DNA of 64,000 bases from Diphasiastrum complanatum. Its lineage: Eukaryota > Streptophyta > Lycopodiopsida > Lycopodiales > Lycopodiaceae. The notes below the pieces were generated by a model. The model searched no databases and was not told where the DNA came from. It saw nothing but the letters and a program-made list of their open reading frames with translations. Numbering within the stretch: the first letter of the stretch is position 1; every line of letters begins with the position of its first letter. The position numbers and the translations under genes were made by a program. The DNA is taken from positions 40,564,923-40,628,922 of the forward strand of contig CM055110.1 in NCBI GenBank assembly GCA_029204225.1, written 5' to 3'. Positions 24,344 through 25,324 of this stretch are shown here, piece by piece.

Positions 24344-25324
24344 ATGGATAGGAGAAAGCAGACAAGGAGGGCCTCCTTCTCTGTTGGCTCATCCTCAGCT
24401 TCTACGGTTGCCATTACACCTCCTGCCAGACCTAGAACGTTCAACCGCAGCAGGTGGCTTTCTGAGATACATAAGTATCAGAGATCCATTGCTCTATTGA
24501 TTCCAAGAGCTCCATTCTACCGTGCTGTCCAAAACATAACTAGAAATGATCTCGGACAGTTGATTAGATTCACACCTAGTGCTCTTTAGTGCCTTCAGGA
24601 GGCTGCTAAAGATTACATAAGCCTGTTTTTCAAAGATTCATTTTTGCTAGCGATCCATTCCAAGAGAGTCACCATAATGCCCAAGGATTTTCAACTCCTG
24701 ATGAGAATGAGGGAGAGGTTTTGCAAATTGCATGTATCTCAGCCTGCTGCTCCCAGACCAGCTCCTCTAGATAGGACTGATCTTCCTACCAAGAGACCTA
24801 GGAAGCAGACAACACCCAAGAGAGCTCCGAAGAAAGTAAGGAGGATAGGCACCACAGAAACCCTAAACGCTAACCCGAAATCAATTGTAGATAACGTTGC
24901 TCTTGATACTGTTGTAAATATAGCTACATCTATTTTGGATACCCCTTCAATCCCTGTAGATACTACACATTCACCTCCTCCTCCTCCCTCAATAATTTAT
25001 ACATATATAGATTCCGATGACTATCTTAAATTTGAGAAGGACATATCCGATGCTATAGATACAATTGGTACTCCTTTTTGTTTTAGACTAGATGAACTTG
25101 ATTTTAGTATAAATTATAGAGTTCTTGATTGTTTGGATCTCAAAGACAGACGGGCTTCTATCAGTGATCCTGTGATAGGGTCCGGGCTTACACTGTTGCA
25201 ATATGACATTGCAAGATATTCATCCAATGAGTTGTTGGTGCTGAGTAATTTTTTGCTTCTGGCCTTCAAGGAGAATAATGACACATTGAAGTTAAGGTTC
25301 CTCCATCAGGTTTTAAGTGCTTAA
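24344..25324 (+). pseudogene. Histone H3 / CENH3-like domain fused to a long C-terminal extension; one internal amber codon
   Basis: A single reading frame of 326 sense-length codons from the ATG at 24344, interrupted once by TAG at 24587-24589. Residues 1-38 are a basic, Ser-rich tail (RRKQTRR). About 40-135 follow the H3 fold: SEIHKYQRS (alpha-N), LLIPRAPFYRAVQNIT (alpha-1), then a loop 1 one residue longer than in H3, [25 protein letters not shown] (alpha-2) and [16 protein letters not shown] (loop 2/alpha-3). LLIP, the IT after alpha-1 and the longer loop resemble CENH3; the RVTIMPKD end resembles canonical H3. After the fold come a Lys/Arg/Pro-rich stretch ([14 protein letters not shown]) and an acidic domain of about 130 residues unknown to me. 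There is no intron across the fold, so a retrocopy is possible. Either readthrough or pseudogene; I lean pseudogene. Confidence 0.75.

Follow-up and report, generated by a model that had tools for sequence, protein, structure and literature searches.

On the evidence of its sequence, the histone H3-like gene in the window (the whole 64-kb stretch of Diphasiastrum complanatum DNA that was analyzed) is part of an abundant four-gene DNA transposon and lies between the inverted ends of that element. The H3 is also conserved in a second, deeply diverged transposon family, beside relatives of the same three accompanying genes, and in the predicted proteins of both families Lys9 is replaced, mostly by Asp. 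We judge the chances to be about even that the H3 of this transposon, whose transposase has a predicted RAG1 fold, is one that host H3K9 methylation cannot mark, relieving the silencing of the element. An initial annotation of this locus had overlooked the four-gene carrier, the conservation of the H3 within it, and the tail lacking K9.

The open reading frame at 24344-25324 was real when the sequence was read, with a TAG codon (24587-24589) inside the histone fold. With this codon read through, residues 26-123 matched PF00125 (Histone) in Pfam at E 1.2e-23, and the protein matched H3 chains from nucleosome structures with E about 1e-19. A longer loop 1, the LLIP motif, and the 13-letter landmark motif were all present, as were residues that we take to be R69, R72, R83, H113, R116, and D123 (H3 numbering), consistent with a histone H3 core fold. 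The H3-like fold, the in-frame C-terminal extension, and the amber codon reported in the initial annotation were thus confirmed. Canonical H3 ends just after alpha-3, whereas the protein of this family (family 1) continues for about 210 residues beyond it. The extension is real, but the ORF does not have its native end: every alignment to another copy breaks off at 25288, and the final 12 codons (25289-25324) are foreign, being read from an unrelated repeat. Intact copies instead end in ...NNDTLSQCLTSGFTPATKYLVIPYHTK followed by a stop codon. The repeat behind the false end occupies 25289-25799 (minus strand), 61335-61823 (plus strand), and 32481-32563 of the window; it starts CACTACAACA, is perhaps CACTA-like, and also supplied an empty target site. 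The C-terminal domain had no match in Pfam, the 10 protein matches to a 326-residue query spanned the histone part only (26-34% coverage), and a 10-sequence structure model of the H3 plus extension (pLDDT 32) provided no usable fold for this domain. No Rfam or tRNA features were found in the window. An origin from an endogenous virus was considered and rejected, as neither the H3 protein nor the transposase had a relative in IMG/VR.

A sibling locus (L026), 0.57 Mb away and 98-99% identical to the window copy, likewise has a frame that opens only right after the position of the amber codon; the stop therefore seems to predate the duplication that gave rise to the two copies. In L026, the counterpart of the second inverted right end of the window (35963-37473) directly abuts the position equivalent to 25288, which argues that an inversion broke the H3 gene. 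With both the TAG and the break at 25288, the window copy is a dead fossil, in agreement with its earlier designation as a pseudogene.

A six-frame search of the organism's own 1.74-Gb genome with the 244 residues following the TAG revealed at least 150 matching places, far more than chance would yield; among the best 150 scored, the window itself was 100% identical and the others 76-97%. By hand count, 58 of these 150 best-scored places lacked an internal stop. TAG was the commonest stop among the scored H3 places, as expected from CAG sites. When 20 copies, all picked for open frames, were fetched for analysis, 11 possessed the whole ORF from Met to stop (328-337 residues) with the extension included, which supports the suggestion that an H3 variant was captured and gained a C-terminal domain. 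Similarity between copies extended far past the H3 ORF and ended at one sharp point (...CTCCTCTAATG), and the other end of the element was the reverse complement of this point. The resulting 27-bp inverted repeats (CATTAGAGGAG...) are common to the left and right ends, the sequences of which differ further in. The one complete copy that was read, at locus L030+L023, is 8681 bp long and has the gene order transposase, X, H3, Y (positions in L023):

about 533-2455, plus strand: transposase, with introns
2595-4056, minus strand: gene X
4940-5923, plus strand: H3
6997-8164, minus strand: gene Y

Genome-wide, we counted 1198 left ends (allowing ≤3 mismatches over 42 bp) and 779 right ends, along with 830 family-1 H3 start sites, compared to 0 for the reversed controls of the two ends and 0 for the control of the start sites. 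The earlier proposal of carriage by a mobile element is upheld by the position of the H3 between the inverted ends, and genome annotators should expect hundreds of H3-like frames derived from an H3-carrying transposon. The copies lie on large contigs generally. Perfect right ends cluster at C1:65.1-66.7 Mb, C1:95.5-99.9 Mb, and C4:19.64-19.67 Mb, with several pairs spaced by about 32-33 kb (e.g., C1:97754354 with 97786678), a pattern suggestive of a large tandem array. One 1.2-kb derivative (C4:68089672-68090887) retains both ends and is probably non-autonomous.

Aligning the window with the complete element provided the following map:

11688-12963, plus strand: left-hand piece of a transposon copy, equivalent to L023 positions 2389-3759 (blastn, 89% over 1231 bp; tblastn)
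11689-11748, plus strand: last codons of the transposase, in the left-hand piece
11895-12963, minus strand: C-terminal part of gene X, in the left-hand piece
12964-23158, strand not given: 10.2-kb insertion splitting the element copy, not part of the element
23159-25288, plus strand: right-hand piece of the same copy, equivalent to L023 positions 3753-5857 (blastn)
23160-23567, minus strand: start of gene X, in the right-hand piece
24344-24454, plus strand: H3 N-terminal tail, MDRRKQTRRASF...
24455-24715, plus strand: H3 histone fold, alpha-N to alpha-3 (PF00125)
24587-24589, plus strand: amber codon in the fold
24716-24997, plus strand: basic, proline-rich linker
24998-25288, plus strand: C-terminal domain, cut short, with no known relative
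25289-25324, plus strand: foreign end of the ORF, from another repeat
27218-28884, minus strand: inverted right end of the element, carrying gene Y and, at 27218-27244, the terminal inverted repeat
35963-37473, minus strand: second inverted right end, with the terminal repeat (35963-35989) and a copy of gene Y
42859-43696, plus strand: left end of another element copy, with the terminal repeat (42859-42885)
about 43431-43696, plus strand: first transposase exon of that left-end copy

The right-hand piece thus holds the start of gene X, the intergenic region, and the H3 gene. The 10.2-kb insertion carries the same 16-bp tandem array near both of its edges (13082-13124 and 22457-22499) and a weak RVP_2 match (19436-20437); it is probably an LTR retrotransposon. 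Gene Y of the first inverted right end is read on the plus strand at 27635-27985 and 28024-28884. The two gene Y copies (27593-28884 and 36364-37475) share 88-89% protein identity, have the same orientation, and are 8.8 kb apart.

The family-1 tail reads MDRRKQTRR, compared to the canonical ARTKQTARKS. Among 17 distinct family-1 tails, K4 was kept in 16 and was the sole tail lysine in 15, and residue 9 was Asp in 15, Ala in one, and Asn in one, but never Lys. The window copy has Ala at residue 9 and K4 as its only tail lysine. A listing by locus added Gly9 in L018, loss of K4 in L016, and three copies with a stop at codon 5. In family 2, the tails at the three loci read were MARTKQTARD (L077 and L082) and MAWTKQTARD (L079), so that residues 1-8 of the H3 tail are exact in the former two and carry one change in the latter. 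A genome-wide search for family-2 H3 starts with codon 9 left free yielded 212 matches (control, 0), and an Asp codon stood at residue 9 in all 15 of the strings listed among them. As read, both families thus retain an H3 N-terminal tail, including its residues 1-8, except that Lys9 has given way to Asp. The Asp could reflect drift fixed in a common ancestor, one event rather than two, since the tail is less constrained than the fold (dN/dS 0.40).

Family 2 was detected with canonical H3 as query, which matched 13 places at 97-99% identity followed by many at 44-57% (best 150 of 6060 candidates); all seven of the latter that were read belonged to this one family. Its H3 is proline-rich and, as read, ends near alpha-3 without the C-terminal domain. 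With its histone part as query, no homologs were found. Around one family-2 H3 (C19:11.0198-11.0295 Mb), relatives of the transposase (E 6e-48, about 34% identity), X (1.6e-7), and Y (4e-12) of family 1 were all present in the same order, transposase-X-H3-Y, with relative strands that differ from those of family 1. For 125 places classed as family 2 by identity, and with transposase matches taken as the best 150 of 7717 candidates, a family-2 transposase lay within 12 kb of at least 57 H3 places (chance, 0.26). In 55 of these 57 cases, the neighboring transposase was on the opposite strand to the H3, mostly 3.1-3.5 kb away.

Selection was assessed in samples picked for open frames. For 55 pairs of the 11 intact copies, dN/dS of the H3 ORF was lowest in the fold (0.15), followed by the C-terminal domain (0.30), the tail (0.40), and the linker (0.54). 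Over 20 copies, the H3 frame had dN/dS of 0.30 and a stop fraction of 0.0009, compared to 0.68 and 0.94 with stop fractions of 0.066 and 0.099 for the other two frames, indicating purifying selection on the H3 ORF while the element spreads. In the same 20 copies, values were 0.34-0.79 for the transposase exons, 0.37-0.52 for X, and 0.59-1.01 for Y, which argues only poorly for selection on Y. Some non-coding frames were also low (0.41-0.44); dN/dS alone is therefore weak outside the H3 fold, and the fold carries the argument. Divergence between copies was greater for the H3 and the DNA before it (pS about 0.2) than for the transposase (0.06-0.09). Element positions 4100-5900 are approximately three times more divergent than the region of the transposase, which would fit exchange of H3 cassettes or a greater age of these cassettes.

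The fold predicted for a relative of the transposase is, across about 440 residues, that of RAG1/Transib, an RNase H transposase fold of the RAG1 type (structures 6b40, 6pqr, and 6pqx). At the sequence level, the transposase had no match to RAG1/Transib chains; a fragment from Adiantum was 58% identical across 20% of it. The motifs LDE, GDLK, and QGME occur in order in the family-1 transposase and its relatives and may represent the D-D-E catalytic triad, with the E region being reached by only 3 of the 31 aligned relatives. Insertions were checked at L023 and at nine further sites with matched perfect ends, picked visually among the first 100 places per end. None of these 10 had target duplications of 2-8 bp, and the 5-bp target repeat of the RAG1/Transib type was absent from all 10; TCA flanked both sides of one insertion, which chance allows. 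Precise empty sites were recovered for both insertions tested, one from two repeats in the window and the other from four other genome places, with no base gained or lost across the junction. By eye, no target motif was seen in the flanks of the 10 insertions. Transposons of the RAG1/Transib type are expected to end in a CAC heptamer, whereas the ends of this element read CATTAG. We take the element to be a cut-and-paste DNA transposon with a transposase of predicted RAG1/Transib fold and zero-bp insertion. The element resembles RAG1-like and Transib systems in its predicted fold, the order of its candidate D-D-E motifs, and inverted ends that begin with CA (6b40, 6pqr, 6pqx; PMC9435367), but differs in lacking a target duplication (5 bp is reported for the algal element AanRAGL; PMC9435367), in its CATTAG ends, in having no recognized RAG2-like partner, and in its H3 cargo.

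In 19 copies, C-to-T changes amounted to 11.6% in CG, 7.6-11.3% in CHG, and 2.5% in CHH contexts, compared to 1.0% for A-to-G. In plants, H3K9me2 and CHG methylation are coupled (KYP/CMT3), and we read the CG/CHG scars as the footprint of H3K9me2-linked silencing; the element would therefore have faced a pathway whose mark its H3 cannot take. The same scars also reveal that silencing did reach copies of the element, which counts against a counter-silencing role. We infer that the transposon H3 may be made as protein, pair with H4, and enter nucleosomes. Because Asp occupies the Lys9 position in the tail, such nucleosomes could not receive H3K9me2 and could not feed the H3K9me2-CHG methylation loop, yet they would stay open to K4-type marks, the family-1 tail having no lysine but K4. 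This might shield the element from host silencing for as long as transposition requires. The C-terminal domain is not needed for this scheme, since family 2, as read, lacks it. More tentatively, and with somewhat less than even confidence, we propose that RAG1-fold plant transposons have carried H3 since before the two families split and evolved a K4-positive, K9-dead H3, with a new C-terminal domain in one family, as a counter-defense against H3K9me2-CHG silencing.

The H3 might instead serve transposition directly, its nucleosomes steering the RAG1-like transposase toward the ends or the targets through the K4 tail and the C-terminal domain. RAG2 reads H3K4me3 for RAG1, and the predicted fold of the transposase, the joint travel of the four genes, and retention of the K4 motif by both families amid changes elsewhere in the tail all fit this idea. 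Genes X and Y, however, had nothing convincing in Pfam (no PHD, Kelch, or other reader domain), and the insertion flanks lack a visible target motif, making this alternative rather unlikely. A dead H3 retrocopy fused by chance to the sequence downstream would account for the stop and foreign end of the window copy, but is refuted by 11 other places at which an intact ORF runs from Met to stop with the extension included, and we give it practically no weight. A host H3 that was captured a single time and then multiplied passively, with no function for the element, has a precedent in the transduplicated H3 of fungal hAT transposons in Pyrenophora tritici-repentis and Pseudocercospora fijiensis (PMC3538342, PMC6710886). 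Purifying selection in the fold and the C-terminal domain, the presence of H3 in two families with such dissimilar transposases, and the same residue-9 change in both render a passenger improbable here.

Finally, a CENH3-like decoy could be loaded at centromeres, biasing transmission or insertion there. The likeness consists of LLIP and one extra loop-1 residue, but the loop-1 Trp is missing in family 1 and copies are found on the large contigs in general. In a tree of 20 rows, including two CENH3 sequences, grouping family 1 with CENH3 lowered lnL by 7.5 and was borderline rejected (AU p 0.049), grouping both families with CENH3 gave p 0.086, and grouping family 2 with CENH3 was not rejected (p 0.143). 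The CENH3 kinship suggested initially thus did not find support, and we hold the decoy to be very improbable. Placing family 1 with canonical H3 of the same genome was rejected (AU p 0.007), which, together with the 11 of 20 intact copies, argues against an ordinary H3 retrocopy with a fortuitous extension. Kinship of families 1 and 2 was not rejected (AU p 0.166), and a weakly supported branch (77/78) set the two apart together with a third H3-like sequence.

The element and its proposed relief of silencing, our preferred reading, have partial parallels. As far as the portions of the fungal reports available to us extend (PMC3538342, PMC6710886), the hAT elements are likewise amplified DNA transposons with terminal inverted repeats and an intron-poor H3-like ORF beside the transposase, but they have a hAT transposase and tens to hundreds of copies, those of P. 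fijiensis all being inactivated by RIP; neither a conserved K9 change nor H3 kept across diverged families is reported in those portions. The element described here differs in its predicted RAG1-fold transposase, its H3 under selection, and its replaced Lys9. The retrocopied origin proposed earlier was not supported, with no evidence pointing either way, and the fungal hAT-borne H3 copies are intronless too. VANC of the Arabidopsis VANDAL elements is a transposon-encoded accessory protein proposed to counter host silencing, with sequence-specific binding and loss of DNA methylation (PMC5735166); it acts by binding DNA, whereas the agent proposed here is a histone. Plant H3.15, in which Lys27 is replaced, similarly lacks a silencing lysine and leads to removal of H3K27me3 when loaded, but it is a host gene, concerns Lys27, and is not transposon-borne (PMC10426802, citing Yan et al. 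2020). No plant case of a transposon-encoded histone, a K9-less H3 variant, or a RAG-like element with H3 was found in the literature searched, which included few subscription papers. Known transposon counter-defenses act on DNA methylation through DNA binding, as with VANC; if our reading is correct, the element would be supplying the nucleosome itself, its silencing lysine exchanged, which would represent a new way to oppose epigenetic silencing and would make it testable whether H3K9 on an element's own nucleosomes holds that element down. The combination of a predicted RAG1-fold transposase with a chromatin protein and zero-bp insertion also bears on how RAG-type elements use chromatin.

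A further H3-like frame, MARTKQIARPKST..., was noted at locus L084 (C7:61150800-61151400, minus strand); it has one TAG and a loop-1 Trp like CENH3, could be a CENH3 retrocopy or belong to a third transposon family, and has a near twin at C7:61421937.
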